Positions 170 through 29,760 of a stretch of 64,000 nt of DNA are shown in pieces. Position numbers and translations under genes: made by a program. Where the stretch lies: positions 62,001 through 126,000 of the forward strand of contig WFMF01000106.1 of the NCBI GenBank assembly GCA_011033025.1, read 5' to 3'. The notes beneath the pieces were generated by a model. It saw only the letters and a program-made list of their open reading frames with translations, was not told where the DNA came from and searched no databases. Position 1 is the first letter of the stretch; every line of letters begins with the position of its first letter. The stretch is from Beroe forskalii (Eukaryota > Ctenophora > Nuda > Beroida > Beroidae).

Positions 170-405
170 GTATGCTAACGCTAAGATCTACAAGTGCAAC
201 AGTCCCAAGTGTCCCCGTCCGACCTGCTACAGGTCAGCGTCGAGTGTCAAGGAGGACACCTTTCCCTGTGACAGGCTCAACTGCACGGGGAAGTTCGAGC
301 TGCTCCGACATGTCAGCTTCGTCGATTGTCCTGGTCACGACATTCTTATGGCAACCATGCTGAACGGAGCTGCTATCATGGACGCTGCGCTGCTACTCAT
401 AGCAG
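170..405 (+). CDS. EIF2S3: eIF2-gamma exon: cysteine knuckle and G3 motif
   Basis: Follows the acceptor cttttccag. Encodes YANAKIYK, the four-cysteine knuckle and [18 protein letters not shown] to LLIAG. Ends in phase 1 at a GC donor (CAG then gcaatg); reading on gives an early stop, so the exon must end here. Confidence 0.9.
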
Positions 406-3400
406 GCAATGATATGATCTATTCTTGGATATATTTTTGTGGTCTATAGTCCTTATCCATAAACGTGCCTTCAACAATCCGAATTTTCACTGTATACCAA
501 GAAAACATCACATTTTAAATTATAGTACTGTCTATGTCACAACTCACAACATGGGTATTGCATAGTTATGAAAAACATTCCGTAGTATTATGACAATTCC
601 GTTCTTTGTGCTGTTTAGACTCAGTAATCACATTATTGTCGCGGTACAATACACTTGTTAGTACCGCATTTGAAAGCCTAGATTACACGATCCATGAAGT
701 TTCATATGGCTACCGACTACCTATACCTTTTGAACATAAGAAGCAGGACAGTTTACCTCGCGATAGTTCACCCCAGGCTCTTTAGCAACTTTCTATGCCA
801 CGGATAAACTGTCCTAGGTACAACAGCTTACCCGCTACGACAGTTTAACACGAATCGCATGGTCAGGGGCAGTAGGTCATTCACTTGGAATCATCACATA
901 ACATGCGATCCATGTTGTATCATTGTTTTGCTCGGGATTAGGTTGAATGTTGATAGGGATAAACTGTCGAGGGGTAACCTGTCGCCCTCCCAGAATATAT
1001 AGAATGTATATTCTGGGTCGTGTATACGGACGTACGGTGTATTGAAGCCTTCTAATTTTTTTGCAAAACCCAAATTTGTATATCACTGAATTATGAAAAG
1101 GGATAAGGATCATTCGACAACGTTTTAATTCTGGTACCTTGGTAATATGACACCGTGAGTGAATCTATGACATTGTGTGATTACGACCCTTTTACTTTTT
1201 AACTGAGTAGTTATCTAGACGATCAAATACTTGACCTTACTTCAATTGTGAATATCAAAACATGAATTTAAAATTATCAGCGGTGAAACGAATGGAACTC
1301 GTTCTTCTTCAGTCTTGGAATCCTGATATACGCTCAGAGTTGACTTGGGTCTTGGGATGTGCTAATCTCACCTTTTCATTCTTCAGGCAATGAAACGTGC
1401 CCTCAACCGCAGACCTCGGAACATATGGCTGCCATTGAGGTCATGGAACTCAAGCACATCATCATCCTACAGAACAAGATAGATCTCATCAAAGAACAAC
1501 AGGTTTATTATCGTCATATCATATGAGTATTCTAGTATTCTACGAACATTTTTACAAATTCTAACTAGAATTTCGTTTCTCAATGATATCAATATCGACG
1601 GTTGTTTCACTCTACGATAACTCGCAAGAAGAAGTGATCGTCCTCCTACCTCCACCCAATTCCAGGCCACAGAACAGCACAGAGACATAGTCGAGTTCGT
1701 GAAGAGCACAGCTGCAGAGAACGCTCCAATCATCCCGATATCAGCTCAGTTGAAGTATAACATAGAAGTTCTCTCGGAGTATATCGTCAAGAAAATACCA
1801 ATTCCACTTCGAGATTTCACTTCAGATCCTAGGTTTGTACGATGTACACTGCTTGTTTCTTGATTGATAAAAGAATGGATATATGATCAGAGATAATTCT
1901 CCTTGTTTTTGCTATTGACTAGACTTCTTGTCAAAGCAGCAGTCAATGTTTTATTTTCATTTTCTCAGGACTCATAATATATTTTCAGATCCTAGGTTGA
2001 TAGTAATCAGATCGTTTGATGTGAACAAGCCTGGTAGCGAAGTAGAAAGTCTCAAAGGTGGAGTTGCCGGGGGGTCTCTTCTGAAAGGTGTTTTAAAAGT
2101 CGGCCAGGAAATCGAGGTCAGAATCCAATGCCGAGAGGTAAGAATACAATCCTGAGGGGGTGATGATGCAATGCTGGGGGGGGGCCAACCCCCATAAACC
2201 CCCGGTGGATATCGAAAAATGGCAAATGGGGGTTTAATTTTAGGGGTTTATGGGGGCTTAATTTAGTTAAATTTTGCTGTTTTATGACTGATTTTGTTCA
2301 CGATTTTTGGCATTTTACGGAATGGTACCATTTTTTGTTGACGATTTTTTGGCCTTTTTTGAAATGGTACCATTTTTGTTGATGAATTTCGGCCCTTTTC
2401 TGAAATGGTACCATTTTTTTTCAGCGATTTTCAAGCCTTTTTGAAATGGTACCATTTTCTGTTGCGCATTTTCGAACCTTTCCTAAAATGGTACCATTTC
2501 CGGCCATTTTTGAAATGGTACTATTTTTGTTGACAATCTTAGACCCTTTTTGAAATGGTACCATTTTTTGTTGGCGATTTTCAAGCCTTTTCTGAAATGG
2601 TACCATTTTTTGTTGACGATTTTTGGCCCTATTTTGAAATGGTACCAATTTTCATTGAAGATTTTCGACCTTTTTCTGGAAAATTAAGCCCCCATAAACC
2701 CCCAAGTGGATATCGAAAAAGGCAAATGGGGGTTAAATTTTTGGGGGTTTATGGGGGTTTATGGGGGTTGGCCCCCCCAATGCTGAGAGGTGAGAATCCA
2801 TTGCTGAGAGGTGAGAATCCAATGCTGAGAGGTGAGAATCCAATGCTGAGAGGTGAGAATCCAATGCTGAGAGGTGAGAATGCAATGCTGAGAGGTGAGA
2901 ATCCATTGCTGAGAGGTGAGAATCCATTGCTGAGAGGTGAGAATCCAATGCTGAGAGGTGAGAATCCAATGCTGAGAGGTGAAAATGCAATGCTGAGAGG
3001 CGAGAATGCAATGCTGAGATGTGAAAATGCAATGCTGAGAGGTGAAAATGCAATGCTGAGAGGTGAGAATCCATTGCTGAGAGGTGAGAATCCATTGCTG
3101 TGAGATGAGAATCCTAAGCTGAGAGGTGAGAATCCAATGCTGAGAGGTGAGAATCCAATGCTGAGAAGTGAGAATCAAATGCTGAGAGGTGAGAATCCAA
3201 TGCTGAGAGGTGAGAATCCAATGCTGAGAGGTGAGAATCCATTGCTGAGAGGTGAGAATCCAATGCTGAGAGATAAGAATCCAATGCTGAGAGTTGAGAA
3301 TCCATTGCTGAGAGGTGAGAATCCATTGCTTAAAGACGAGGAGGTTCATAAGAATTATAACCTTCTCTTTTCTTCTTTTTCTTCCATTTCATCTTATCGT

Positions 3401-6400
3401 ACACATCATTGCTCAATGTATCTCACCTCACGGCTCACACTACGGAAATGTTCACTGTACAAAACGTTGTCTGCTCTCGAGGTCAGGCCTGGTATCCAGA
3501 CGAAGGATGAAGAAGGAAATCTGCACTGTGTGCCCATCCGGTCTCGTGTCCTTTCCATGTTTGCAGAACACAACGATCTCCAATATGCGGTACCAGGAGG
3601 TCTCATTGGAGTTGGCACGAAGATAGACCCAACCTTGTGTATCGGAGACAGACTGGTCGGTCATGTAAGTACACACTACACATTTGATCTTGTGATGTTT
3701 AAAGAGGAAAGATTCTAAGCGCTAAAGGATTTCTCAGCGCTATTCAAATCCAGAATCGGAAGTTATTCTTCTGCAAGGAGGCAGTGTTCAATCGATTTGT
3801 GATAACCACTGAATACGCCCAGTCTTTTTAGCTGAAAAACTTTAAGAAATTTATCGGGGTTTTCATTTCGATTCTCAGCCAAAAATATTTTTCATTATTT
3901 CCAAAAACCTACAAACAAAAAGATATTGGGGTTTTTCCTTGTGTCGGGCAGGTTTCAGTTCATCATTGCACAGTTTTGTTTTGTCCCTCCTAACACAGTG
4001 CTCTGACGAACTGGTGTCAGTTCGTCGTCGTACAGTGTTGTTATAACTTTATAAGCAGTTTGTAATGACAAAGTGCTGTGACGAACCGGTGTCAGTTCCT
4101 AGTTCGTCATAGTGCAGTGTTGTGACGAATAGGTTTCAGTTCGTCATGACAATGTGTTGTGACGAACTGGTGTCCGTTCGTCCGCGTCATAACAGAGTGT
4201 CTTGACGAACTGGTGTCAGTTCGTCATGACAGAGTGCTGTGACGAACAGGATTAAACAGGATTAAACAGGATTAAACAAATTATGATCAAATTACAATCG
4301 TAATGTCTGATCCCTATATAAAAGAAACGTTAAAATTATATCAAGGTGATCAATTTAAAACAAACGTAAATGAGTAAAGGTGAAACAAATTTAAAAAAAT
4401 GATAATGACGCAAAAATTTAAGTGAAAATCAACATCTAGACTCTAAATTAACAAGGCAACGTCACACTCAGATAAAAAACGTACAATAACCCAGTTAAGT
4501 AATAAAGTGAATCAAAATTAAAAGTAATAAGTTAGACATATAAAGCAAACACAAATCATTCAAAAAATGCTCAAAGAATTTACACTGAAGAAAAGCCTTA
4601 AAAAGTCCATTAGTTCATGTAACATTACACATACAATATACATAAGTACATAAAGAAGAGTCTGAATTCTGGTGATTTTGGCAATAATTCAATTGGTGTT
4701 TTCGGCAGAATCATCCTTCGGGAATCGTAGTTTGTGACACCGGTGCAGGAATCTTGCCAGTTCTTTTACATGAAGGGGGTGTGAGAAGATATCTTTGTAG
4801 TGACGATTCTTGATGAGGTTCTGAGTCACATCCCATAAGGTGTTCCTTGGCTCATCATAGAGTGAACAAACATTGAGAAGGTGGTTTCATCTTCTATGAT
4901 TGGCTCAAAGAAGGGCAGTTTGCTGAGGAGGAAAACATCTTCGGTACAGCAATGAGGGCATGTTCTGTTGGCAATGTCCTGCCTTAGGGAGCCGTACCTT
5001 CCGGTTTCTACTCTGAGTTGATGGGAGCTTGAGCGGAGCTGGGCTATGCGCCGGGTTTCATTTCTTGACAGCCAAATGTTTAAGTAGCATTCGATTTCGA
5101 ACTTTTCTTTGAAATTGTTGTAGAAAGTCAATTTGGCATTTGTTTCTTTCTCACGTTTCCAGGTAGCAATGAAGAATGCTCTAAGATTACTCCTAATTTG
5201 ACTAGGGTAGACATTTTCTGCTCTTCTGGATGTGGCAACTTGTCCCTTGACAGTATCGATGTTTTTGTACCAGCTCAGTCCAAGGTTTCTTTGCTCACAG
5301 AAAGCATGTCTGGCAAGTGCAGGACAATCTTCAGTGTCCATTAGTTGCAGGCGATTGAAGTAAGAGAAGACTTGCTTTGAGAGCTCAATTCCGAGTGGAT
5401 ACCTTCCACTGTCTCCCCAAAGAGGGCTGTTTGAAGTCTTCTTGTGGACACCAACGGACCATTTCAGGAAAGCCAGGTGTACGTTTTCAAGAGGGTCTTT
5501 GCCAACTGATTTCAGGACTTCCATCTTGTTGCTGTCCATGCTGGTTAGCTCTTTGAATAGATGGGTCTCAGGCAGCCATACTTGGCATCCATAGCCTACA
5601 ACTGGTACAATCAGTGCATCAAAGAGTTTGTACAAGATGGTTCTTCTCAGAGATCCCACATCTATCATTTTCTTTAGGGCGAAATAGCTCCTGAGGCCTT
5701 TCTGGCGCAGCTTGTTGTGCATTATTGAATGATCCTGTCAGAGTGAATGTTATTCCAAGATAACAGTATTCACGCACTGATTGGATGCTGGTTTCTCCAT
5801 ACATGAAGTCACAACTTTCTTTGAGGATTCTGCCGGACTTGTTAAAGACCATGATTGCAGTTTTGTCCATGTTCACCATGAGACCCCATTGGTAGCAGTA
5901 TTCATGCAGGACAGAGAGCATTGATTGAAGACTGGCTTTGTCTTCAACACCATTAAGCAAAGGGACTTTACTTGCGGCTTTATTCTTGAAGCACTCGTTG
6001 AGTTGCTCAGACATTGCCTGGATGTAGCATTTGAACAGCTCTGGGGAGAGAGGGTGTCCCTGTTCAGTCCCACAAAGAATGTCAATTTTGTAAGAGAGCT
6101 TGTTCAGTAGCTTGATTTTTGCACTTGAGTTGTTGTACATGTGTTGTAGGCACGTGAAGAAGCGACCTTTTAATCCCATCTGCCATAGCTTGTAGAGTAA
6201 GGCCTCACGGCTCACTGTATCAAATGCTTTAGCAAAATCTACAAAGCATGTATAAAGTCGGCCTTTTTTAATGACTTTAACATATTTGTTGATGCAGGTT
6301 GACAGTGTCAAGATGTGATCTGCCGTCTGAGCATTTTTGCAGAAGCCAAGCTGGTTTTTGGTGTCTGGGCAGAATGCTGATCTAAACTTCAAGAGTCTTT

Positions 6401-8544
6401 CAAGTAAAATACTGGAGAACAACTTTCCAACATTACTAGCGACAGCTATAGCCCTGTAGTTGTTTGGATCATAAACAGTTCCTTTTTTGTGAAGTGGCGT
6501 GACATAGGAAATGTTCCAAGGGTAGCAGCCTAGCCGAAGGCATTCATTGAAAAGATGCAGAAGCAAATGTCTCAGGAGAGGTCCACTATTTCTCAGAAAT
6601 TCGTTCGCAACAAGGTCTTCTGATACTGCTTTTCCTGCTTTTGTTTTCTGGATGGCATTGCTGAGTTCATCTAAAGTGATTTCCTGGTCGAGAATTTCTT
6701 CAATTTCAGCGCCATTGGCGGTGTTAGTGCCAGCTTTTGAGATTGTTTCATTGCCTTTGCATATCAACTGATCTTGCTTTATTGGAACATCCTTCTTCTT
6801 GTAGAGGTTTTTGAAGAATCTACTGAAGTTCAGGAGGTCAAAAACATCAAGTTGCGTAGTTTTAGTCCCAGCTGACTTAAGTTTTTTAAACCTAGCCCAT
6901 TGAATGTTATCTCCACTTTCGATGTCTCGGGTCAGGTTGCTGATGAAGCTACTCTTTTTTGAGTTCACCAGCTTCTTGTGTTCCTTTCGGTTACTGTAAT
7001 ACAGCAACCGGATCACTGAGTCTAATGGGTTCCTGCCATACTTAAGTGCCAGTCGATTTAAGTTTTTCTTGGAGTTAATACATTCAGCATCAAACCAGGG
7101 TAATTTTGGTTTCATTCTTCCCCTTTTCTTCTTATGCTTTGTGCATTTCTGAGCTACTCTCTCAGTTCTAACTTTTGGAGGAGTTATTTTGCTGGCTAAC
7201 TCATGGTATACTTCAATGAGCTCTTTATTGAGATGGTTGATGTCACTCTCATTGGAACACGAGATCGAAGCTAGTTGAAGCAGCTTATCCCTTACACTTT
7301 CCTGGCTGTCTAGGAATGCTTTTCCTAAGAGGGGGTTGGTGTTATCCCATTTAAAACGGACAGGGGAATCTTCTAGCGATGCAAGAAGCTCATCACTTGA
7401 TAGAAGATCATGCCTTAGGTTGAGAGTGCAATAGCATGGTTTGTGGTCTGAGAATTTGTTCAGGTCACCGACTTGGAAGCTGGTGTCGTTTCGTCATAAC
7501 AGAGTGTCGTGACGAACTGGTGTCAGTTCGTCAAGACAGAGTCCTGTGACGAACAGGTGTCATTTCGTCATAACAGAGTGTCGTGACGAACTGGTGTCAG
7601 TTCGTCATGGCAGAGTGTTGTGACGAACAGGTGCCAGTTCGTCATGACAGAGTGTTGTGACGAACAGGCGTCAGTTCGTCATGACAGAGTGTTGTGACGA
7701 ACAGGTACCAGTTCGTCATAGCGTAGAGTCGTGACGAACAGGTGTCCGTTCGTCATGACAATATTTTGTGACGAACAGCTGTCAGTTCGTCATAAAATAG
7801 TGTTGTGACGAACAGGTGTCAGTTCGTCATAAAATAGTGTTGTGACGAACAGGTTTCAGTTCGTCATAACTTCACTTCAAACTTTCAAGTCCATGCAATT
7901 GGTATCTGTGCCACAGCCTGAAAGTACGAAGCCCCCAAAAACTGCAGAACTTTTATGAAAACTATTTTCTTCAATAGGATTATTGAATTAAAATTTTAGA
8001 ATGCCAGATAAACATTTCTTTATTTTTCATTGCTTTTTAAGTTCCAAGTTGAGTTTTTATGGACATTTTCTTATGAAAACTGAAAGCACAGCATGTATAA
8101 TTGATGATTATCAGAACATAGGATAAATCATTAAATCATAGTTATTTTTGGAAAAAAACAGAAAGTCATGAGTTCTATTTTCATGTAATTGGATCAGAAG
8201 GATCGCTTCCTCCCATCTATACGACCATAGAACTGCAGTACAATTTGATGAGACGTTTACTTGGAGTGAGGACCGAAGGAAAGTCCAAAGGTGCTAAAGT
8301 TGAGAATCTGGCTAAGAACGAAGTTTTGCTCGTCAATATTGGATCCTTGTCGGCAGGGGGTCGTGTTTCTGCGATTCGAGATACAAAGAAAGATCAAGGC
8401 ACCGATAAGAGGGCCAAAGTTGTACTTAATAGTGCAGTTTGTACTGAAGTTGGTGAGAAGGTTGCTATAAGCCGTAAAATTAACAAACATTGGCGTCTCA
8501 TTGGGTGGGGAACGATCAAAGGAGGAATCAAGATGGCAGTTTGA
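170..8544 (+). CDS. EIF2S3: Translation initiation factor eIF2 gamma subunit (5' end outside the window)
   Basis: GTP-binding subunit of eIF2, which carries Met-tRNAi to the 40S ribosome in the cytosol. Six exons join in frame: 170-405, 1387-1502, 1666-1832, 1996-2116, 3482-3664 and 8185-8544. Visible are a cysteine knuckle (KCNSPKC, CPRPTC, CDRLNC), G3 [16 protein letters not shown]4 [46 protein letters not shown] and the C-terminal [10 protein letters not shown]-like [10 protein letters not shown]. The G1 P-loop exon lies left of the window. Exons 2 and 3 are separated by an ordinary 163-bp intron; the other four introns carry direct repeats across both junctions. An AATAAA lies about 20 bases after the stop. 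Orthology is clear from memory of the fly, yeast and human proteins; the last intron's ends are inferred from protein continuity. Confidence 0.95.
1387..1502 (+). CDS. EIF2S3: eIF2-gamma exon: G4 motif
   Basis: 116 bp from ttcag to CAG/gtttat. Encodes [13 protein letters not shown] and [12 protein letters not shown]. It enters in phase 1 and leaves in phase 0. Confidence 0.92.
1666..1832 (+). CDS. EIF2S3: eIF2-gamma exon: G5 motif
   Basis: Follows the acceptor ttccag. Encodes [17 protein letters not shown] and [19 protein letters not shown], then a donor AG/gtttgt in phase 2. The last 12 coding bases are repeated at the end of the following intron. Confidence 0.92.
1996..2116 (+). CDS. EIF2S3: eIF2-gamma exon: start of domain II
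   Basis: Encodes [33 protein letters not shown] and KVGQEIE. Family alignment (IEVRPGI) puts the donor at GAG/gtcaga. A stronger donor-like sequence (GAG/gtaaga) lies 21 bases downstream and would add seven residues in frame. Confidence 0.88.
2117..3350 (+). repeat. 21-bp minisatellite filling eIF2-gamma intron 4
   Basis: About 27 units of a 21-bp repeat (ATGCTGAGAGGTGAGAATCC plus one base) run from about 2779 to 3345. Diverged units also lie right after the donor (2117-2176). The array is interrupted by an inverted-repeat element at 2177-2777. Each unit contains AG/GTGAGA, a good 5' splice-site match, and is open in one + frame as a seven-residue repeat (MLRGENP). The long open frames here are a by-product of the 21-bp period, not genes. 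Confidence 0.9.
2177..2777. mobile_element. Non-autonomous inverted-repeat element (MITE-like)
   Basis: The ends are inverted copies: GGGGGGCCAACCCCCATAAA on the left and its complement on the right, followed inward on both sides by a shared GGTGGATATCGAAAAA-type block. CAATGCTG flanks both sides and could be an 8-bp target duplication, but it is also part of the surrounding 21-bp array. The core (about 2320-2650) is a 37-40 bp tandem repeat built round the palindrome AATGGTACCATT. No coding capacity. Confidence 0.75.
3482..3664 (+). CDS. EIF2S3: eIF2-gamma exon: domain II
   Basis: Encodes [38 protein letters not shown] and [16 protein letters not shown]. The acceptor is ctcgag; the donor CAT/gtaagt is strong. 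61 whole codons. Confidence 0.9.
3990..4247. repeat. 37-bp hairpin satellite, left part
   Basis: Roughly seven units of about 37 bp containing GACGAAC, an 8-base spacer and GTTCGTC, so each unit can fold on itself. The same array resumes at 7481 on the far side of the LINE. Confidence 0.88.
4248..7480 (-). mobile_element. LINE copy A, 5'-truncated (minus strand)
   Basis: Non-LTR retrotransposon with an apurinic-type endonuclease end (SDHKPCY, about 7440) and a reverse transcriptase ([50 protein letters not shown]) on the minus strand. The C-terminal ORF2 region is at about 4693-5722. The 3' end is three copies of a 10-bp unit (TTTAATCCTG on the minus strand), a tail type seen in the CR1/L2/Rex group; the clade is not certain. 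It sits inside the 37-bp satellite. ORF2 is in overlapping frames (5619-7115, 4826-5722), so it is frameshifted. Compared with copy C it lacks 15 residues that include the catalytic ADD. Confidence 0.9.
5619..7115 (-). pseudogene. LINE reverse transcriptase ORF (copy A)
   Basis: 498-codon open frame covering the post-endonuclease linker ([10 protein letters not shown]) and most of the reverse transcriptase. The ADD-box segment is missing: GVE runs straight into DKASL near 5943, whereas copy C reads GVEVSHLLWADDLVLMAQ before DKASL. The frame is lost near 5720. The coding sequence is otherwise well kept and closely matches copies B and C, so the insertion is young, but this copy should be catalytically dead. 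Confidence 0.85.
7481..7872. repeat. 37-bp hairpin satellite, right part
   Basis: About ten more units of the GACGAAC...GTTCGTC satellite, continuing in register with the left part: the LINE breaks the unit between GACGAAC and TGGTGTC. Confidence 0.9.
8185..8544 (+). CDS. EIF2S3: eIF2-gamma terminal exon
   Basis: Encodes [66 protein letters not shown] and [12 protein letters not shown], then TGA. The start was chosen so that [12 protein letters not shown] aligns without a gap to the family's VGQ-VLGAVGALP. The bases just before it are ttttcat, so no AG acceptor is present at that point. Confidence 0.85.
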
Positions 8545-10547: not shown

Positions 10548-10980
10548 ATGCCTTCGGAGGCTAGTCCTGCAGAACGATCAAGATCAAAGGAAGAGCACAC
10601 AATTTACATCAATCTTTTACCACTATGGAGAGGTCAGAAGAAGCAAGGAGTTAGATACAGCGCAGCAATCATGAACTCCATGGCAAACGAGGCTTCAGAA
10701 TCTGACAAAACCATCATAACCAACTACTACAAAGACGAGCTGATGAACGATATGGAGAGTTTATCTGAGGAGGAATACACCCATCACATGAACAAACTGT
10801 GTAAGAAACTATCCCAGAATTTGAAGGGGCTTAGAGCTGGAGATACAGTCCTGAACTTCGGGGGAGATCATTCTATTTCCATGGCAACGGTACAGAAAAT
10901 GTACCACATACACCCAGATCTGAGGGTTATCTGGATTGACGCCCATGCTGACATCAACTCTCCGGAAACCTCGTTGTCAG
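10548..10980 (+). CDS. Arginase exon 1
   Basis: Starts at the first ATG giving a full arginase N-terminus. The same frame is open a little further upstream (basic and serine-rich), so translation could begin earlier. Ends TCA G/gtgcc, phase 1. Confidence 0.8.
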
Positions 10981-12120
10981 GTGCCAACTTATCATTATGG
11001 CTTTTCATTGGTAATCTATTTCACTCAGAGAAATGGGTATGTCTCCCATATAAACGGCTCTGAGTGACGTCACAGATCTGAACGTCAATTTTTCTGTATC
11101 CTAAACCTAACCATTGCCCTAACGAAAACCCTAACCTTAATCCTTATCCTAAACCTGACAAATCCTGACCCTTACCAGAACCCTAACCTTACTGCTTAAA
11201 GCGCTAGATGCGCTTAATTATATTTTCTGAGTGACGTCATTATCATAATTCGAAATGCACATATATAAATAATTTGTCTTTTTTGCAAGAAAACAGGAAA
11301 ATTCAACCAAATCAAGCCGATTTTATTCTAAATACAAACTGTCTGATGTTCATGGCATTGCATGGGTCCTGTTTCCCTGCCCGTCGAATTAATTCCATCA
11401 AATATCAAAAAAAATAAAGTCATTGTCAACTAAAATGGTTCAGTAATACAATGTCTGCAGGTAACTACCACGGAATGCCGGTGTACTACATCAGCAACCT
11501 GTCCGACTTGCACAAGAACAGCAGTCGAGTGGGGCTGGAGAACATAGCCTACATCGGAGTGAGGGATGTCGACGTGGCCGAGATCAAGATCCTGAAGGAG
11601 CACAACGTGAGGAACTACACGAGGGACGAGATCATCAGACGAGGTGAGGACGAGGAAGCGAGGAGGTGGAAATTGATCATTATCTGATCCCACTCGCCAG
11701 CATATCAATCATGGCATTCATAGTAAAATAGTCATTAGATTAGCTCTTACATCTTAAAAGTTGACTCTTAAAATTTGACTCTTACATCATTATCATAGCT
11801 TATTCCGTAACCACCTCTCAAACAGGATCGAGCACTATAATCAGTGAGCTGATAGAGGAGAAGCAGCTACTGCGCTACCCAGTGCACATCTCCTTCGACA
11901 TAGACGCGGTAGATCCCTCGGAGTGCCCAAGCACTGGGACCACAGCCCCCGAGGGGATTACCATCTCCCACGTGGTGAAGCTGATCCGGAGGATCAAGGA
12001 AACCGGGAACCTGGTCTCCATGGACATTGTGGAGTTCAATCCACTGGTGGGGGACGAGAAAGGGATGTGGAGAAAACGGTGGAGTCTATCATGAAGGTCA
12101 TGAGAGAAATAGTGTCATAA
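10548..12120 (+). CDS. Arginase (three exons)
   Basis: Ureohydrolase family; hydrolyses arginine to ornithine and urea at a di-manganese centre. Exons 10548-10980, 11461-11643 and 11826-12120 join in frame through AG/gt...ag borders. The N-terminus (IYINLLPLWRGQKKQGV) aligns without gaps to the arginase GxPFxxGQxxxGV start. Metal ligands are present: GGDHS (His108, with Asp107), DAHAD (Asp131, His133, Asp135) and SFDIDAVDP (Asp230, Asp232). SGNYHGMP matches the substrate loop. About 300 residues is normal for the family. Near 12062 the frame shifts: one frame ends in a junk tail, while the other continues with the expected DVEKTVESIMKVMREIVS and stop at 12120. That is either a real one-base indel or a sequencing error. 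The 3' end is repeated downstream. Mitochondrial or cytosolic location cannot be told. Confidence 0.9.
11461..11643 (+). CDS. Arginase exon 2
   Basis: Acceptor tctgcag. Encodes NYHGMPVYYISNLSDLH through IAYIGVRDVDVAEIK to EIIRRG. Donor GAG/gtgagg. The intron before it holds a CCCTAA-like degenerate patch at about 11100-11200. Confidence 0.9.
11826..12120 (+). CDS. Arginase exon 3
   Basis: Acceptor aaacag. Encodes SSTIISELIEEKQLL, HISFDIDAVDPSECPST, VSMDIVEFNPLVGDEK, then a frameshift into DVEKTVESIMKV and REIVS plus TAA. Confidence 0.85.
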
Positions 12121-12275: not shown

Positions 12276-13442
12276 GCGTTAATTCATACTGAAACTTCGA
12301 ACTTCAAGTTTTGATTAGTGTCAAGTCTAAAAAGGATGTAGATCTAGAGACAAGAGGCAGATCTAGAGATTAGATGCAGCTCCTAGGCCAATGGGGAATA
12401 GAGATTAGAGGATGCATTGACTAAGACTGATTTTATGACTGATTTTAACGAACTTTCTTTAAATTTACAGCTGATTTTTATTACTTATTCGTAGAGGGTA
12501 ACCCACTTATGACGAATGTTTTCTAAATTGTTAAATTGAGATAATAAACATCATTACGCATGCCTATAATTGGCATGACAGGCAAACATTGAACGCGAGA
12601 CATCATCTTAAAACAAGGAATATTAAATAGAATTGGCGGTGCAGAAATTGGTGAAATTCGAAATAGAACCGATCTGATCAAATCGAAAATATTACTCTGA
12701 TTGCTTGAACATTCGCCAATCCTATTTAGAGGTGGATAAAGCATACATGTAGCGAAACAAATATACTGATTTTGCCATTCTAATCAACTATTAAAATCAT
12801 TGTAATTTTTAATTAGAGTAAGATTATAAAATTGAATATAAGTTGCATAATGTTCTAATAATTTACTTTCGACTACATAGCATAAGAAAGACTGATAAGA
12901 AAGATAAGATAACATTTTGGAATCGAAATCGACCATCTTTAACTCTTGGCATCGTTGATTATTGATACGAGATATAATTGTCTAGATGGATGACAGATAG
13001 GAGATACTCATACTGTCTGTTATCAATCATGATAAAATCTCCAATAAATCAGATCATCATGCTAAAGTGATGTCATTTTGAAAAATAACATTATCGTACA
13101 ATTATTTGATAACTTTTTATATTCAATTTTCATTGCTATACAATAACGTGAAGATTTAGAAAAATTACACAGAATATATCAACATTTTCAAAGTTCATCA
13201 AGTTCAAATGTCAATTTCTATTTTGCAAACAATCAAATAAAGTCTTTTTGAGCGAGTGGTCTAAAACTCGGCCGGGTCGGAATGGTCCATGTGTTTCTTG
13301 AGCGAACTTCCCAAATGTTTGATCTGAAAAATTATAAATTTAGATAGAATAATTTATGATTTCTAGAATGTAAGGTTATTATGAACTCAATAAGTCCATA
13401 ATCCCTCCAATAATCCCTAAATACCCCACTTAGGATGTCAAC
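12276..13442. other. Intergenic region
   Basis: AT-rich. An AATAAA at about 12543 could end the arginase transcript. I see no gene or clear repeat. Confidence 0.5.
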
Positions 13443-15011
13443 ATGTCGAGGCTCACCATCACACTCCTAACCCTGCAATGCCTAGCACCCTCTCTCCTCG
13501 CCCTGACCTACAAACACCGCTTTAGGTTCGATGTCTACAACGACAACACAGCCGGCTACTTGTTCGATGTTCAGGACCGGACCTTCAAGTTCGGGTCGGA
13601 AGGTTCGATCCAGGCGCAGGTGTCGTGTAACTTCCCCGGTAACATCTCATGGGGGCTGAACCCGGCCTTCAACCTCTTCCTGTGCGAGGAAAACACCAAG
13701 ACCCGGTGGCTGTACCTCTACCCTGACTGGGGGATGTGTTTCCAGGACTACCACTACTACCACCACTGTTCCATAGACGAGATGAAGCAGACCGGTCCCA
13801 CTTCCTGGGCCTACAACCGGACTATCTCAGAGCCCCAGAACATCGTGGCCCGGATCAGGACCTGCCCCATCTACACGGCCCCCCAAGTTTCCTTCTCCTT
13901 CCTCGGACAGAACTACGTGGTGCGGACTTACAGATGCGAGTATACCGGCATCTTCCTCAACAACGGCAACCAGTCCCGGCTCTCGGAGGACGAGGTGTGG
14001 AGTCCCCTCGTGTACGGGGTCCTCGTGACGATATACGGCACTCTCGTGGCTAAGGGGCTCTACGAGGTGATACGCTACTGGAGGTACCGCGTGAACTGCA
14101 GCTTCCATGTCTACTCGCTGATCCTCTTCAAGTTCCTGAACATCCTCTCCACAGCGCTCTACTACAAGCAGATAGTGTACGAGGAGGATTTGACGAGGGG
14201 CTACGAAGCTTGGCACTTCTGTATGAGCATGACGCAGGCTGGTAAATTCACTGCCTACTACCTGACCATCCTGGCCATGGCGTCTGGGTACTGCATCTAC
14301 AACAAGAAGTTCCCCATGAACTACCGGGTGCATGCTGTGTTGACCAGCCTGCTGTTCACTGTGTTCTTCTACCTGCATGTTATCAATGACAGTTACGTAG
14401 AGGTTCCGCTGGTTGTCATCGTGTCCGCTGCCTACGCTGCCGTTCTGGCGGTCTTCTGGGCATTCCACCTCAAGCGTCTCATGATGGTCAGGTACCAGTT
14501 CCAAGTGGAAATGGCAAACTTCAACAACAACAATGCAGACAACAACGACAGCGAAGGGAGACAGTTTCTAATCGCCAAGGAGCAGATCAAATACAAGGAA
14601 ATCTTGGTGGGTATCGCCTTTGCCGAGATCCTCTCCTTCCTCGCGTTTATCATTGTCTTCGAGTTCTTCCGGGCAGACAACTACCCTATTCCGGGTACTA
14701 CAGGAGTGATAGTAACGGAGTCCTTGGAGCTGGTCCTGATCCTGCCCCTCGCACTGTTCTACAACATGCGGGACTTATCCCGGTACTACCCCAAACCCCC
14801 TCCACCCCCGCTGATACACGTGATCAAGACACCGGGCGAGGGGTACAAGATATCCCTGACTGAGGGCAGCAGACAGCAGGACATGACCAAGGAGCTGTCT
14901 GTGAATGAGGAGACGAGTGAGATCCACATCATCCACATGCCATCGCGGAGTAGTTCTAGTTCTACGAGTATTCCAAGTAGTGCGGACAGCGGGGAACCAG
15001 TCTACATCTGA
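13443..15011 (+). CDS. Seven-transmembrane protein with luminal domain (GOST / intimal-thickness-receptor type)
   Basis: A single uninterrupted 522-codon frame. It has a signal peptide (about 1-20), a cysteine-containing luminal domain of roughly 160 residues with NIS, NRT and NQS glycosylation sites, then seven hydrophobic segments at about 188-206, 221-241, 265-286, 297-314, 320-341, 387-408 and 420-440. The tail has a KPPPPP stretch and a serine-rich end. This plan (signal peptide, beta-rich luminal domain, 7TM) is that of the GOST/GPR180-TMEM145 type. I place it there by architecture only; no signature residue settles the subfamily. The GC-rich codon use and lack of introns differ from its neighbours, so a retrocopy origin is possible. 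Confidence 0.8.
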   Translation: MSRLTITLLTLQCLAPSLLALTYKHRFRFDVYNDNTAGYLFDVQDRTFKFGSEGSIQAQVSCNFPGNISWGLNPAFNLFLCEENTKTRWLYLYPDWGMCFQDYHYYHHCSIDEMKQTGPTSWAYNRTISEPQNIVARIRTCPIYTAPQVSFSFLGQNYVVRTYRCEYTGIFLNNGNQSRLSEDEVWSPLVYGVLVTIYGTLVAKGLYEVIRYWRYRVNCSFHVYSLILFKFLNILSTALYYKQIVYEEDLTRGYEAWHFCMSMTQAGKFTAYYLTILAMASGYCIYNKKFPMNYRVHAVLTSLLFTVFFYLHVINDSYVEVPLVVIVSAAYAAVLAVFWAFHLKRLMMVRYQFQVEMANFNNNNADNNDSEGRQFLIAKEQIKYKEILVGIAFAEILSFLAFIIVFEFFRADNYPIPGTTGVIVTESLELVLILPLALFYNMRDLSRYYPKPPPPPLIHVIKTPGEGYKISLTEGSRQQDMTKELSVNEETSEIHIIHMPSRSSSSSTSIPSSADSGEPVYI

Positions 15012-15686: not shown

Positions 15687-16894
15687 CAGGGCTGGATCCA
15701 GGGTGAAAAAAGTGGGGGGGTTGTAAATTTCGCCAAGGGAGGTGGCGCGCAGCGCCGCAGAGCGAGCTATGGCAGGGGTCTGGGGGCGCAGCCCCCAGCG
15801 GGGTCCAGGGGCAGAGCCGCTGGTGGGGGGTTAGGGGGCGAAGCCTCCCGGAAAATTTTTCAGTAAATTAAGTCATTTTGCTAAAATCTCCTTCATATTT
15901 TTCCATAGAAACCTGGGAATTAAGACTTTCAGTAATTAAATAGACAATATGAGCTAAATTAGGATTCAGGAAACACCTCACATCCATGATTTTTCATATT
16001 TCCTCTGAGACTCATTTTTATTGTTTTTTGTGGTTCGCTCACTTCAGTCGCAAAATTGGAAAATGACCACAAATGAATGCGAATTGCAAGGTATATCAGT
16101 ACTATGCGATTTATAGTCTTAGGTCCTTACTGATTTTTCTGAGCACTGCAAGCGGAAATTTTGAAAGTTCCACATTGAACACAACTAAGGACTACCAATT
16201 TAGCCACATAGATGATAATGAATCACAACATTATATAACAGCCCGCTGCAGACGATAATTTTCAGTGTTTTGGACCCCTGATTGAGTGTCTGACTGTGTC
16301 TACACCAGTTGTGTAACAGCTCGCAACAGCTCACTGCAATCAAAATTTTCATGGGTTTTTCGCATTTGAATCTACCTCCAAAGTCAATTTGGTGCCGGCT
16401 GTTTCGGACTGGCTCTGTCTTGACCAGTGCAGCAAGCAGTTGTTTAAAATAATTTGATCAAAACAGCCCACCGCAGGTGAAAATTTTAGGGTTTTTTGCG
16501 TCCAAATATTGAAAATTATGTGTTACCCCAGTTAGCAAGTTTTCAGTTTCAAATACATAATTTTCAATATTTGGATGCAAAAACCCTAAAATTTTCACCT
16601 GCGGTGGGCTGTTTTGATCAAATTATTTTAAACAACTGCTTGCTGCACTGGTCAAGACAGAGCCAGTCCGAAACAGCCGGCACCAAATTGACTTTGGAGG
16701 TAGATTCAAATGCGAAATGGGGTTAGAACTGGCTAAAGAATAATGAAGTCAATGAACTCTCCGTGTACATAAAACATAACAAATATTACAACCCCACTCT
16801 AAAACCAACAACCCCACAACCCCACTACAACCCCACTCAAGAAAAAGTGGGGGGGTTGCAACCCCTCCAAAACCCCATTGTAGATCCATCCCTG
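15687..16894. mobile_element. hAT-like non-autonomous DNA transposon
   Basis: Flanked by the exact 8-bp duplication TATAATGA (15679-15686 and 16895-16902). The ends are inverted: CAGGGCTGGATCCA on the left, and CAGGGATGGATCTA on the complement of the right end. An 8-bp duplication with CAGGG ends is typical of hAT elements. No transposase frame. Next to the left end is a GC-rich block (15730-15855); inside is a long hairpin at about 16355-16716. Confidence 0.85.
16355..16716. repeat. Near-perfect inverted repeat (hairpin)
   Basis: Arms of about 165 bp (16355-16520 and 16556-16716) are nearly identical and separated by about 35 bases. It lies inside the hAT-like element. Confidence 0.85.
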
Positions 16895-17240: not shown

Positions 17241-18729
17241 GAGTAAGGAAGGTCAGGGGACACCAAATTATATCCTCGGAGAGATGGTGGACATCCTTAC
17301 CTTCACTTGCCTCAATACAGCTATGATATAATAGATGAAATCTCATGAATCACTTTTCAGCCAATAGCAATTCAACTAACTTTTAACAGTATCCAATCAC
17401 CAGGCTTACAGTTGAAGTAGAGAGCCACTTTAGCGCTCTCTATTATACATGGAATTCGGACATGAAGTGATGGTGTTTTATATTGAGTGGTAGTTCCGAC
17501 CTCTTTATTTCCACGTACACTGTACATTTACAGTGTATAGTGTGCATTGAAACATCGCGACCCCAGTGCCCCATTGTGTTGCTGTTTGTTTCGATGAGTT
17601 AGGTATTTATATCTTGGGAGCGTTATTGTATGGTTCCCTTGTTTGCCTTTGATTGTGATTTGTGCAATGATAGAACAATAGACCACTCTCTTTCACGGTA
17701 ATCCTGTGCTCTCGTTATATCATTCGCTTCTCATTCTATGGACTATTGATATTCCTCGTTTGGATCCGAATCCCGAATTGAAGCCATATTTCTGAATTAT
17801 TATGTTCATGAGGAATGATTTTGGGTATTCAGTGTAGCGATTAGGATCACCCTTCTGAAATTCATCAACCCTCAATTTGCTAATTTGATTCACAGTTCGC
17901 GCCCACTGCAAAGCCTCTTGTAAAGGCATGGTGTAGCTGACTTTGCAACTTTCTTAGAACCACATTAATTTCATTACCCAAACATCTTTCCATGAGCTGG
18001 GAAATTTCTAAAATAATCAGAATTAGATTGATTTTACCGTTGAGAGTGTCGGGTTACTGTCGGATTTTATCGTTGCTATTGCTAAAATTAGAAGATATTA
18101 CGCATGAAATTATCCAGAACAAGTTTGATGCCTATGAAATGCGTTCTGCTTTAAATTTGTATGTGTTTCTCTGCTCTAACCCTCTTGTTCCATGGCCAAA
18201 TAATTCACTGAAATAATATGGCCATACTTTTTCTGAAAAATATATTTTTCAGCTCAACCTGTTCCATGCCCATATAATTTTTGCGCCGCGCAAATTACGT
18301 AATTAAATCACTGTCCAAGCATTGAAACATTAACCCCTCAGTATTCAGTCAACTGATGATTGGTGCATTAACCAATCAGATTGAGCAATATGAGTGTGTT
18401 ATCCATATAGCATTTTATTTCTATTCAATGCACGTAAAGTTGGCCTTGTCTTCATTCCGATTCACCTAGACCCTATAGTGCACACAGCACAGTCGAAATG
18501 ACAAGGCCTACTACAGCAGTACAGCCTATATGAACTTATAAAGGGTAAAGTATACACGGCCAACGCCCAAAGAAGCAGCAAACTGGGATGTGTTTTTGTC
18601 GAGAGTGAAAAATCGCGTGGCCTTGTCCCCTACTTGCATATTCCAAAATCAAATCTTACTACTTATAATTCTTCCTCATATATAAATTAATAAATATATA
18701 TCTGTCTGTCCGGTCTTCCTTATATAAAC
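17241..18729. other. Intergenic region
   Basis: No gene recognised. A short minus-strand frame at 17720-17929 has no family match that I know. Confidence 0.45.
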
Positions 18730-19710
18730 AGGATTAAACAGGATTAAACAGGATTAAACAAATTATGATCAAATTACAATCGTAATGTCTGATCCCTATA
18801 TAAAAGAAACGTTAAAATTATATCAAGGTGATCAATTTAAAACAAACGTAAATGAGTAAAAGTGAAACAAATTTAAATTAAATGATAATGACGCAAAAAT
18901 TTAAGTGAAAAACAACATCTAGACTCTAAATTAACAAGGCAACGTCACACTCAGATAAAAAAAACGTACAATAACCCAATTAAATAATAAAGTGAATCAA
19001 AATTAAAAGTAATAAGTTAGACATATAAAGCAAACACAAATCATTCAAAAAATGCTCAAAGAATTTACACTGAAGAAAAGCCTTAAAAAGTCCATTAGTT
19101 CATGTAACATTACACATACATAAGTACATAAAGAAGAGTCTCAATTCTGGTGATTTTGGCAATAATTCAATTGGTGTTTTCGGCAGAATCATCCTTCGGG
19201 AATCTTAGTTTGTGACACCGGTGCAGGAATCTTGCCAGTTCTTTTACATGAAGGGGGTGTGAGAAGATATCTTTGTAGTGATGATTCTTGATGAGGTTCT
19301 GAGTCACATCCCATAAGGTGTTCCTTGGCTTATCATAGAGTGAACAAACATTGAGAAGGTGGTTTTCATCTTCTATGATTGGCTCAAAGAAGGGCAGTTT
19401 GCTGAGGAGGAAAACATCTTCGGTACAGCAATGAGGGCATGTTCTGTTGGCAATGTCCTGCCTTTGGGAGCCGTACCTTCCGGTTTCTACTCTGAGTTGA
19501 TGGGAGCTTGAACGAAGCTGGGCTATGCGCCGGGTTTCATTTCTTGACAGCCAAATGGTTAAGTAGCATTCGATTTCGAACTTTTCTTTGAAATTGTTGT
19601 AGAAAGTCAATTTGGCATTTGTTTCTTTCTCACGTTTCCAGGTAGCAATGAAGAATGCTCTAAGATTACTCCTAATTTGACTAGGGTAGACATTTTCTGC
19701 TCTTCTGGAT
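18730..19710 (-). mobile_element. LINE copy B, 3' fragment (minus strand)
   Basis: The same family as copy A: the 3' tail of TTTAATCCTG units, then the 3' UTR and the C-terminal ORF2 ([45 protein letters not shown]). It breaks off at about 19710, where copy A continues. The ORF at 19167-19610 preserves the reading frame that copy A has lost. Confidence 0.9.
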
Positions 19711-21643: not shown

Positions 21644-21809
21644 CCATGTGATCGTACACGAACTTCGGCATGACAGTGACCGTGACAGTTTGCCCGACTT
21701 CCTGGATAACTTTGAGGATTTTCTTGTCGCTCAGCCCGACCACGTTCCGTGCGTCAATCTCGACGATGTAGTGGTCTGTGAGCATGCCGTTACGAGCTGC
21801 AGACGAGTC
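21644..21809 (-). CDS. SDCBP: Syntenin PDZ2 exon (partial gene)
   Basis: On the minus strand this reads DSSAARNGMLTDHYIVEID, ARNVVGLSDKKILKVIQE, then VGQTVTVTVMPKFVYDHM, ending at a consensus donor ATG/gtgagt. It matches the second half of syntenin PDZ2 (human: IVKDSSAARNGLLTEHNICE and on to TITIMPAFIFEHI). Syntenin is a PDZ adaptor that binds syndecan tails and ALIX. The bases just before the acceptor AG also encode IVK, the residues expected just upstream. No other syntenin exon was found here, so it could be an isolated exon between long introns or a fragment. Confidence 0.82.
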
Positions 21810-21814
21810 CTTGA

Positions 21815-22140
21815 CGATAGAAGAATGTGTTAGAGGGTGAGAGAGGAGAGGTGGGGGTGATAGGTACAGAATACGGGGTTTGCAATGTGTGGAGGAGTAG
21901 GGGTGACAAGATGTGAAGGAGTAAAGCGTGTGAGAGAGTAGAGGTATGACTTGTGAAAGAGTAGGGTATGGTTGGAGTAGGGTGTGACAAGATGTGACGA
22001 ATTAGAGGGGGTGACAAGGCGTGAGCGAAAACGGGTGTGTGATAGGAATCCAGGGAGTAGGGGGCATGGGGCCCTAACGGGTGTTACAGAATGAGAGATA
22101 TTGGGGAAGGTATTAGATAGGTTGTGGATATGAAAATCAA
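21815..22140. repeat. Degenerate GTGA/AGAGTAGGGG repeat
   Basis: Purine-rich sequence with loosely repeated GTGACAAGATGTGA and AGAGTAGGG units. Open frames on the minus strand follow from the bias. Confidence 0.45.
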
Positions 22141-23949: not shown

Positions 23950-25044
23950 TCATAAGTGGTGTTCCCCAGGAGAACCGTCTTAGGCCCTATCCTTTTCATC
24001 ATTTTCATAAATGATATGGAATGGCATCATACACTCCAAAATCAGTTTCTTTGCTGATGACACATGTATCCAAGCAGATATCTTCTGAACAGATGTCCAT
24101 CTGCTTCAAGAGGATCTAGACTATGTCATTGACTGGTCGAAATCAACAATATGATGCTCCATGAAGACAAATTTGAACTCATAATCCATAAAAATAAGCC
24201 TAAATCAGCTATCTATGAGTTACCATTCATGCCAGAAGTCATGTCATACAATGTCTCCACTGGGGAAACCATCACACCAGTTGAACAACTCAAAGACCTA
24301 GGTGTTATTGTTTTCAAAGCATCCCTCTCTTAAGCGCCCTCACCTGAGTAGTATTGTCCAGCGAGCTCGCTCTGTTGCATCTTGGGTCCTTAGTGCTTTT
24401 AGAGCAAGGGATTCAACAACAATGGTAACTCTACAAGTCTCTTGTCCGCTGCCACTTAGAATACTGCTGTCCTTTGGCATCCGTCAGCAATCCAAGACAT
24501 AAAGCTCATTGAGGGGGTACAGCGATCATTCACCTCTAAGATCAACGGTGTTCAACATCTCACCACTGGCAGCGGCTTAAATGTCTTGGTCTCATGTCAC
24601 TTCAACGCAGACGTGAGCGATACATCATAATCCAAATGTGGAAAATACTCCATGGCCTCTGTCAAAATGATGTTAAAGTACAGTTCTCAGCACCATCCCG
24701 TAATGGCATCAAGGCTAAGATCCCTAGTCTTTCGAGGCACAGCAGTCAGCATAATCAGTCCCTGTATGATTCTTCCTTCGCTGTGATCGGCCCAAATTAT
24801 GGAACTGCCTCCCTAGCAGCTGCCACAAATAGCAGACCTGAGCAGTTTAAGCAAAAATTAACAAATTTTTGCTTACATTCCCAGACAACCCGCCAACGGG
24901 AGACTACACAACAGTGAATAATAATTCGCTGTTAGATTGGTGCATGAACAAAGCAGAGGCGAATCTGCTAGGGCAGTCGCGGACACATGTGATGACCCAG
25001 TAGAAGTTCTACGAAACAGACGCAAGTGACGCAAGTAAGTAAGT
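23950..25044 (+). mobile_element. Decayed L2/CR1-like LINE, 3' half
   Basis: Broken frames with reverse transcriptase remnants (a GVPQ-like motif, FFADDT), then QLKDLGVIVF, LEYCCPLWH, IEGVQRSFTSKI, a LKCLGLMSLQRRRERYII-like stretch and MWKILHGL, the usual order at the ORF2 C-terminus of CR1/L2 LINEs. It ends in a short AAGT/GTAA repeat. Several frameshifts and stops make it older than the LINE that follows directly. Confidence 0.75.
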
Positions 25045-25889
25045 AACCTGACCCGAGACATCGAAAGTGGAGATAACATTCAATGGGCTAGGTTTAAAAA
25101 ACTTAAGTCAGCTGGAACTAAAACTACGCAACTTGATGTTTTTGACCTCCTGAACTTCAGTAGATTCTTCAAAAACCTCTACAAGAAGAAGGATATTCCA
25201 ATAAAGCAAGGTCAGTTGATATGCAAAGGCAATGAAACTATCTCAAAAGCTGGCACTAACACCGCCAATGGCGCTGAAATTGAAGAAATTCTCGACCAGG
25301 AAATCACTTTAGATGAACTCAGCAATGCCATCCAGAAAACAAAAGCAGGAAAAGCAGTATCAGAAGACCTTATTGCGAACGAATTTCTGAGAAATAGTGG
25401 ACCTCTCCTGAGACATTTGCTTCTGCATCTTTTCAATGAATGCCTTCGGCTAGGCAGCTACCCTTGGAATATTTCCCATGTCACGCCACTTCACAAAAAA
25501 GGAACTGTTTATGATCCAAACAACTACAGGGCTATAGCTGTCGCTAGTAATGTTGGAAAGTTGTTCTCCAGTATTTTACTTGAAAGACTCTTGAAGTTAA
25601 GATCAGCATTCTGCCCAGACACCAAATAGTAAGGGATGGACTGTAACCTAGTGTGAAGTAAATAGTATAGTAGGTCTGAGAACGTTTTTCGGTCGCTTAT
25701 GGGTCATAGATTCACCAGAAAAAAACACTCCAACTTCTGAATTGGGGAAACCCCTTTTTTGGACCCCTTTTCTTCCTAAATGGGGCAAAAACTTTGATTG
25801 GCAATATCTCAGCCTCTGATTGAGATACGAAGCCAATCTTTGCACCAAACTATGCAGAATGAGCACATTATGGGGGGCGGAGCATAGTT

Positions 25890-26620
25890 TTAAAGTCGTA
25901 CCCCCTTTCGTTTTCGAGTTATGGACGAAAAACCCCTTTTTATTCCTTCGCGTATGACCAAAAATGCCCCTTTGTAATAAATGAAAACTGAAGGTCGTAG
26001 AGAACTCAACAAGTACACTAGGGTATGCAGAATGAGCACATTATGGGGGGCGGAGCATAGTTTTTAAAGTCGTACCCCCTTTCGTTTTCGAGTTATGGAC
26101 CTTTTATTCCTTCGAATGACCAAAAATGCCCCTTTGTAATAAATGAAAACTGAAGGTCGTAGAACTCAACAAGTACACTAGGGTACGCAGAATGAGCACA
26201 TTATGGGGGTAGAGCATAGTTTCAAAGCCGTACCCCCTTTCGTTTTCGAGTTATGGACGAAAAACCCCTTTTTATTCCTTCATACATGACCAAAATGCCC
26301 CTTTGTAATAGATAAAACTGAAGGTCGTACAGAACTCAACAAGTACACTAGGGTATGCAGAATAAGCACATTATGGGGGGGTAGAGCATGGTTTGAAAGC
26401 CGTCCCCCTTTTCGTTTTCGAGTTATGGACGAAAAATCCCTTTTATTCATTCGCGTATGACCAAAAATGCCCCTTTGTAATGAATGAAAACTGAAGGTCG
26501 TACAGAACTCAACAAGTACACTAGGGTATGCAGAATGAGCACATTATGGGGGGTAGAGCATAGTTTCAAAGTCGTACCCCCTTTTGTTTTCGAGTAATGG
26601 ACGAAAAACCCCTTTTCATC
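25890..26620 (-). repeat. Left-arm tandem array of the foldback element
   Basis: About four units of 165-175 bp containing CGTTTTCGAGTTATGGAC, a TTCCTTCG block and TATGCAGAATGAGCACATTA. Inverted with respect to the right arm. Confidence 0.88.
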
Positions 26621-26639
26621 CCTACACATATGTTTATTG

Positions 26640-28129: not shown

Positions 28130-29760
28130 GTAATTATGATCTGATGCATGTGGCTAAAAAGGAGGTTTTTGTCCATAAATCGAAAACGAACGGGGTACGA
28201 CTTTCAAACCATGCTCTACCCCCATAATGTGCTTATTTTGCACACCCTAGTGTACTTGTTGAGTTCTGTGCACCTTCAGTTTTCATTCATTACAAAGGGG
28301 CATTATTGGTCATACGTGAAGGAATAAAAAGGGTTTTTTCGTCCCTAACTCGAAAACGAAAGGGGGTACGGCTTTGAAACTATGCTCTACCCCCCATAAT
28401 GTGCTCATTCTGCATACCTATGTACTTGTTGAGTTCTGTGCGACCTTCAGTTTTCATTTATTACAAAGGGGCATTTTGGTCATACTCGAAGGAATAAAAA
28501 AAGGGTTTTCGTCCATAACTCGAAAAACGAAAAAAGGGGTACGGCTTTCAACCATGCTCTACCCCCCCCTAATGTGCTCATTCTGCATACCCTAGTGTAC
28601 TTGTTGAGTTCTGTACGACCTTCAGTTTTCATTTATTACAAAGGGGCATTTTTGGTCATACGCTAAGGAATAAAAAGGGGTTTTTCGTCCATAACTCGAA
28701 AACGAAAGGGGGTACGGCTTTGAAACTAGGCTCTACCCCCCATAATGTGTTTCTACATACCCTATGTCTTGTTGAGTTCTCTACGACCTTCAGTTTTCAT
28801 TTATTTCAAGGGGGCATTTTTGGTCATACGTGAAGGAATAAAGGGGTTTTCGTCCATAATTCGAAACGAAGAAATTTTGAAACTATGCTCTACCCTATAA
28901 TGTGCTCATTCTGCATACCCTAGTGTACTTGTTGAGTTCTCTACGACCTTCAGTTTCATTTATTACAAAGGGCATTTTTGGTCATACTGAAGAATAAAAA
29001 AGGGTTTTTCGTCCATAACTCGAAAACGAAAATTTTGACTTTAAAACTATGCTCTACCCCCCATAATGTGCTCATTCTGCATACCCTAGTGTACTTGTTG
29101 AGTTCTGTGCGACCTTCAGTTTTCATTTATTACAAAGGGGCATTTTTGGTCATACTCGAAGGAATAAAAAGAGGTTTTTCGTCCATAACTCGAAAACGAA
29201 AGGGGGTACGGCTTTCTAACCATGCTCTACCCCCCCTAATGTGCTCATTCTGCATACCCTAGTGTACTTGTTGAGTTCTGTACGACCTTCAGTTTTCATT
29301 TATTACAAAGGGGCATTTTTTGGTCATACAGCGAAGGAATAAAAAGGGGTTTTTCGTCCATAACTCGAAAACGAAAGGGGTACAGCTTTGAAACTAGGCT
29401 CTACCCCCCATAATGTGCTCATTCTGCATACCCTAGTGTACTTGTTGAGTTCTCTACGACCTTCAGTTTTCATTTATTTCAAAGGGGCATTTTTGGTCAT
29501 ACGTGAAGGAATAAAAAGGGGTTTTTCGTCCATAATTCGAAAACGAAAGGGGGTACGGCTTTGAAACTATGCTTTCTACCCTATAATGTGCTCATTCTGC
29601 ATACCCTAGTGTACTTGTTGAGTTCTCTACGACCTTCAGTTTTCATTTATTACAAAGGGGCATTTTTGGTCATAATGCGAGAAGGAATAAAAAGGGGTTT
29701 TTCGTCCATAACTCGAAAACGAAAGGGGGTACGACTTTAAAACTATGCTCCGCCCACCAT
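28130..29760 (+). repeat. Right-arm tandem array of the foldback element
   Basis: About nine units of 165-180 bp (CGTCCATAACTCGAAAACGA, TAATGTGCTCATTCTGCATA, GTACTTGTTGAGTTCT). Longer than the left array, so the two arms have expanded unequally. Confidence 0.9.

Follow-up and report, generated by a model that had tools for sequence, protein, structure and literature searches.

Exact direct repeats across the splice junctions of four introns in a ctenophore eIF2-gamma gene are consistent with intron gain by target duplication

How new spliceosomal introns originate is a long-standing question, and few species show clear footprints of the process. We analyzed the introns of an eIF2-gamma gene that lies at the left end of a 64,000-base stretch of the genome of the ctenophore Beroe forskalii (GenBank assembly GCA_011033025.1, contig WFMF01000106.1, positions 62,001 to 126,000 of the forward strand). 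This stretch (the window; 40.7% GC, no N) starts within the gene, whose visible exons lie on the plus strand at 170-405, 1387-1502, 1666-1832, 1996-2116, 3482-3664, and 8185-8544. Joined inside the short repeats described below, these exons form a frame of 393 codons followed by a stop, with no internal stops. The translation matched Protein Data Bank (PDB) chains of Eukaryotic translation initiation factor 2 subunit 3 (EIF2S3), the best being 28zu_E (E = 7e-188), which we take to be the human protein. The alignment to the EIF2S3 chains was gapless across all five junctions, and the product scored above the cut-off of the NCBIfam model NF003077 (IF-2 subunit gamma). A further intron, upstream of the first visible exon, stops one base short of the TAT codon of YANAK (160-175). 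We take this junction to be in phase 2 of the preceding codon, presumably glycine, which would place the intron near the pancrustacean 81-1 position without coinciding with it.

Four of the five introns between these exons carry a direct repeat that is common to an exon end and the opposite intron end. For intron 1 (406-1386, 981 nt), the two copies of CAGGCAATGA (403-412 and 1384-1393) span a donor and an acceptor that both read CAG|GCAATGA. Copies of TTCAGATCCTAGGTT lie at the donor (1821-1835) and acceptor (1984-1998) of intron 3 (1833-1995, 163 nt), and copies of TCGAGGTCAG at the donor (2112-2121) and acceptor (3477-3486) of intron 4 (2117-3481, 1365 nt). For intron 5 (3665-8184, 4520 nt), the left copy of TCATGTAA (3661-3668) is at the donor CAT|GTAAGT, and the right copy (8181-8188) is at an acceptor, TTTTCAT|GTAA, that has no AG in register. 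These repeats, all on the plus strand, had been reported in a sequence-only reading of the window, and we confirmed each as exact and maximal. Its statement that intron 2 (1503-1665, 163 nt) shares only CAGG, a consensus-level match, was also borne out, and this intron serves as an internal control. Repeat length is not constant, being 10, 15, 10, and 8 bp in introns 1, 3, 4, and 5, respectively. Outside the repeats, the flanking bases match at 8 of 40 positions, which is the chance level. Three of the four repeats contain AGGY (introns 1, as AGGC, 3, and 4), with ATGT instead in intron 5; a random stretch of this coding sequence, at the same lengths, contains AGGY with P = 0.06-0.14, giving P = 0.0025 for at least three of four.

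We compared these matches with those at other junctions. Seven introns could be placed in full in the window, the five of eIF2-gamma (junction matches of 10, 4, 15, 10, and 8) and two of an arginase gene (5 and 3). Thus, four of the seven true pairs match over at least 8 bases, while the 42 wrong pairings of donors and acceptors, which are not independent because the same ends are reused, span 1-6. In a proto-splice null of 8029 AG|GY x AG|G pairs, matches of at least 8, 10, and 15 bases occurred with P = 0.0047, 0.0004, and 0.0001, respectively, and the sole 15-long match is probably intron 3's own pair read backwards. This null was drawn from the portion of the window that is poor in repeats and was preferred to a window-wide null, which is inflated by the window's repeats. 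Among GT-anchored null pairs, matches of at least 8 occurred at 0.0024. If the eIF2-gamma introns were old and conserved, with border similarity arising from splice consensus and luck, consensus would account for the three to five matching bases seen in intron 2 and the two arginase introns, but the null rates are low for four such introns in one gene, and we regard this explanation as extremely improbable. Chance and splice consensus fail to explain the eIF2-gamma junction matches, and the four-repeat pattern is genuine and strongly non-random.

Neither arginase intron has a repeat. The first arginase exon was placed by a Pfam match and the junctions were set by eye; the joined frame is open. 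By eye, TGTC-AGGT, interrupted by a gap of 3 nt, occurs at both borders of arginase intron 1 (10960-11480; TTGTCAGGT / ATGTCTGCAGGT) and may be a decayed repeat. A 29-bp match (86%, E = 6e-4) between this intron (11290-11318) and the minus strand of eIF2-gamma intron 4 (2283-2255) was taken as chance.

The sequence-only reading had also placed every repeat in exact register with the inferred donor and acceptor. This held for introns 1 (GC-AG), 3, and 4 (both GT-AG, as is intron 2), but for intron 5, only the donor GTAAGT fits. None of the nine registers within TCATGTAA gives GT-AG, GC-AG, or AT-AC, and in the best of them (GT-AT), the strong GTAAGT donor pairs with an AT end. No AT-AC register, as would suit the U12 class, occurs inside any of the four repeats. 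Thus, a protein-keeping register with GT-AG or GC-AG exists for introns 1-4 but not for intron 5. Canonical GT-AG alternatives for intron 5, spotted by eye and unscored, all alter the protein, for example by adding FYFH via CATGAG|TTC or a longer insert via ACAG|AAAG. Intron 4 has a second donor 21 nt in, GAG|GTAAGA (GT at 2138), which is in frame and would insert seven residues. In each repeat-bearing intron, the opening bases replicate the downstream exon and the closing bases replicate the upstream exon. Because the intron ends copy the opposite exons, the splice sites appear to be those dictated by the target, without later refinement.

These departures from GT-AG could mean that this copy of eIF2-gamma is non-functional or partly processed, with its insertions left unspliced. 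Intron 5, with no usable acceptor in register, and the GC-AG ends of intron 1 would fit such a copy. However, the 393 stop-free codons, the lack of gaps at five junctions with EIF2S3, the presence of AGGY in three of four repeats, and the ordinary intron 2 all argue against this, and we consider a defective copy very unlikely.

To describe what lies between the repeats, we compared the inserts with each other, with the exons, and with the rest of the window. At a threshold of E = 1e-3, none of the four repeat-bearing introns matched another of the four, and the rest of the window held no match to intron 1 or intron 3. A search for complementary ends in introns 1, 3, and 5 found none, ruling out for these introns the end pairing known from Amoebophrya. 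Intron 1 contains a copy of bases 7-21 of exon 2 (14 of 15 matching; 461-475, plus strand) that is collinear with the repeat and begins ~49 nt after it. One of 300 shuffles was as good (32 such tests were run), and in a 21-nt test of this intron, the best match was 14/21, equaled by 3 of 100 shuffles. This copy could be templated filler, the product of repeated breaks, or the remnant of a longer duplication.

Intron 4 begins with a 21-bp minisatellite (unit GAGAGGTGAGAATCCAATGCT), the left end of which (2114-2176, plus strand) starts on the donor. The main block (2777-3330, plus strand) holds 26.4 copies with 92% matches, and an element with 26-bp perfect inverted arms (2178-2203 and 2753-2778; approximate outer limits 2177-2779) splits the array. 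Similarity to the array starts at exon base 2114 and takes in the donor, and AGGTGA is present in 20 of the 26 listed main-block units. A 32-nt window across the border recurs in the array at 20/32, with none of 100 shuffles as good. A 21-nt border window matches at 13/21, with 39 of 100 shuffles as good, and is unremarkable because GAG is all that the units have in common with the exon. The two ends of intron 4 can pair, with 3 of 500 shuffles equal, and the matched stretch sits at the end of the array. As a separate observation, the minisatellite (2112-3330) repeats the donor region of intron 4 ~28 times; 18 of the 26 main-block units carry AGGTGAGA, which by eye is nearer to the donor consensus than the actual donor, GTCAGA.

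Such an array raises the possibility that the introns arose when an exon segment containing an AGGT site was duplicated in tandem, or when the border was duplicated repeatedly, as in the "mirages" of amphioxus. Mirages are documented in the genes of lancelets and have been suggested to give rise to introns (PMC3087553, PMC3902484), and tandem duplication has been put forward for some Drosophila introns (PMC2891723). The minisatellite built on intron 4's own 5′ splice site, the 32-nt window result, and the collinear exon 2 copy retained in intron 1 would fit this origin. One weak match to exon 6 in intron 5 (3951-3980; 1 of 300 shuffles as good) points the same way and was taken as chance among the 32 tests. 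However, in introns 3 and 5, no exon copy beat the shuffles in fixed-length tests, apart from intron 3's own repeat; these tests covered all of intron 5, while the 300-shuffle test covered its outer pieces (3665-3990 and 7871-8184). In addition, the copy at the intron 4 acceptor fits the exon rather than the array consensus. Because of this match, the sharing of only GAG, and the unremarkable 21-nt window, the intron 4 array looks secondary. We judge duplication of an exon segment or border to be a rather unlikely source of the four introns.

Intron 5 has a similar nested structure. Two blocks of a 37-bp minisatellite (3993-4250 and 7482-7870, the latter with 10.5 copies; both on the plus strand) are split by a long interspersed nuclear element (LINE)-like retrotransposon on the minus strand (approximate limits 4245-7493) with a reverse transcriptase open reading frame at 5619-7493. 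Pieces of this LINE lie elsewhere in the window (18727-19710, 25042-25626, 30015-30418, and 31830-33518). Since they are 97-98% identical, the family appears young. Searches of viral contigs and genome contigs with its reverse transcriptase found no relative. The nesting suggests that growth by arrays and mobile elements came later than the introns themselves.

In a region this rich in mobile DNA, transposable elements or introners could have inserted with target site duplication, both splice sites being co-opted from the duplicated target. Some introner families reportedly derive both splice sites from the site of insertion, and terminal inverted repeats are present in 72 of 177 families and duplications in 49 of 130 (PMC9860276). 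Since many introner families are reported to lack inverted ends, their absence here is compatible with introners (PMC9860276). Nonetheless, our repeats are unequal in length (8, 10, 10, and 15 bp), and the duplications cited for introner families described earlier span 3-9 bp (PMC9860276). Moreover, the four introns have no common sequence within the window, and both the inverted-ended element and the LINE lie within minisatellites, away from the intron ends. Because the ends of introns 1, 3, and 5 are non-complementary and the repeats are unequal, a single DNA-transposon or introner family is disfavored. Overall, we consider insertion by mobile elements unlikely.

The sequence-only reading had proposed that this gene gained several introns recently by a mechanism active in this lineage. 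The repeats, the points at which they end (8 of 40 matches beyond them), and AGGY in three of the four give good support to gain of introns 1, 3, 4, and 5 through duplication of a short target; as a whole, the proposal is supported in part. Such a duplication accounts for the repeats and where they stop, and for the restoration of the codons. The model that we favor, with modest confidence, is that the four introns were born when DNA entered the coding sequence and 8-15 bp of the target were duplicated, through repair of a staggered break with filler. At each site, foreign or filler DNA would have entered, the left copy of the target being kept as the exon end and 5′ splice site and the right copy providing the 3′ splice site and exon start. 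As the left copy forms the donor side and the right copy the acceptor side, splicing would restore the original codons. The likeliest route is a double-strand break with staggered ends that was repaired with filler DNA, because repeat length varies and the inserts are mutually unrelated. Later, the 21-bp minisatellite of intron 4 would have expanded from the 5′ splice site and been split by the inverted-ended element, and intron 5 would have acquired its 37-bp minisatellite and then the LINE. That the gain was recent is weakly suggested by repeats that are exact over 43 nt, though exactness itself defined their lengths. As for activity across the lineage, the basis is one gene and one possible case in a second gene.

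Several points weigh against this model. Three of the seven visible introns (eIF2-gamma intron 2 and both arginase introns) have no repeats. Variable-length repeats would also fit target-primed insertion of the LINE type. No intron-less relative was seen in the searches made, so gain is read indirectly from the repeats. In addition, intron 5 has no accepted splice-site pair in register, and the right copy of intron 3 contains, 7 nt before the frame-keeping TAG, a CAG that competes with it; splicing of all four repeat-bearing introns as drawn is thus predicted from the genomic sequence. Finally, the 15-bp repeat exceeds the 4-12 bp reported for Daphnia (PMC4202315).

A second gene may provide a fifth case. 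An exon on the minus strand (21645-21821) has Syntenin-1 as its best PDB match (E = 9e-23), and its codons S-I-V-K (21821-21810) are conserved in that chain. Ahead of these codons lies a pyrimidine-rich stretch without an AG for 128 nt, and the nearest AG is the one that closes the K codon (AAG|GAC). If this acceptor is used, the syntenin intron would end in a copy of exon codons, like intron 3, making it a possible fifth repeat-flanked intron whose upstream exon would end in ATCGTCAAG before GT. A search of the window by tblastn and a few patterns recognized no upstream or other syntenin exon, so the case is one-sided. The alternative acceptor, an AG 128 nt upstream that would add ~43 residues, is unlikely.

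A broader interpretation is that this lineage is undergoing active intron gain and that any 8-15 bp coding target, once duplicated, can serve as both splice sites even without a 3′ AG, as in intron 5 (GT-AT), which would imply relaxed 3′ recognition and tolerance of new introns in essential genes. We regard this as speculative and rather unlikely. On this reading, the syntenin exon would count as another case. Intron 5 bears on whether a duplicated target that lacks AG can be spliced.

Other features of the window were noted. A perfect inverted repeat with 139-nt arms and 82-nt spacing (16358-16717) is likely a foldback element. Tandem arrays of 172-173 bp (25851-26623 and 28155-29779), by eye one unit on opposite strands, adjoin pieces of the intron 5 LINE. 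A 524-codon open frame (13437-15008) looks like an intron-less membrane-receptor gene; it matched no Pfam entry at E = 0.01, and presumably resembles TMEM145/GPR180. Searches of viral contigs with this 13.4-15.0 kb protein, with eIF2-gamma, and with both minisatellite units found no relative, and a search of the whole window against Rfam at gathering scores gave no matches.

The mechanism that we favor is of an already known kind. Current proposals for intron gain include transposon-mediated AGGT duplication, tandem duplication, and break repair, and short direct repeats are reported beside 43% of gained Daphnia introns (PMC3443670). Among the paper titles listed, none concerned these particular introns. 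Rogers and Bendich described direct repeats, mostly imperfect, near all 213 introns examined, within 40 bp on each side of the borders (PMC11782384), a far looser criterion than the exact register used here. Introners with target-derived splice sites resemble our introns in that a duplicated target contains both splice sites; here, we find no common family and no constant duplication length in 64 kb, and introns 1, 3, and 5 lack complementary ends. Amoebophrya introners share direct repeats across the borders and departures from GT-AG, but their repeats are 3-5 nt and accompany pairing inverted repeats (PMC7789003). Departures from GT-AG also occur in the larvacean Fritillaria, in which 95% of introns escape GT/AG (PMC13326754), whereas five of the seven visible introns here are GT-AG. 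The mirages of amphioxus are minisatellites made from an exon-intron border that includes the splice site, as the array of intron 4 may be. Their units are 10-72 bp in Adh3 and ~150-160 bp in globins, and the globin units hold real exon pieces (PMC3087553); in contrast, the intron 4 units match the exon over GAG alone and leave the repeat at the other splice site unexplained.

Daphnia pulex neointrons likewise have short direct repeats that join an exon end to the opposite intron end, internal repeats, and no repeated insert family (here, none seen within the window). In Daphnia, 33 exon-intron repeats of 4-12 bp are reported, with 118 of 120 derived introns GT-AG and one GC-AG (PMC4202315), while the eIF2-gamma repeats are 8-15 bp, with four such introns in one gene, one of them GC-AG and one lacking AG. 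With four such footprints inside a single conserved gene, reaching 15 bp compared to 4-12 bp in Daphnia, this genome would be well suited to testing break repair against introners and tandem duplication.

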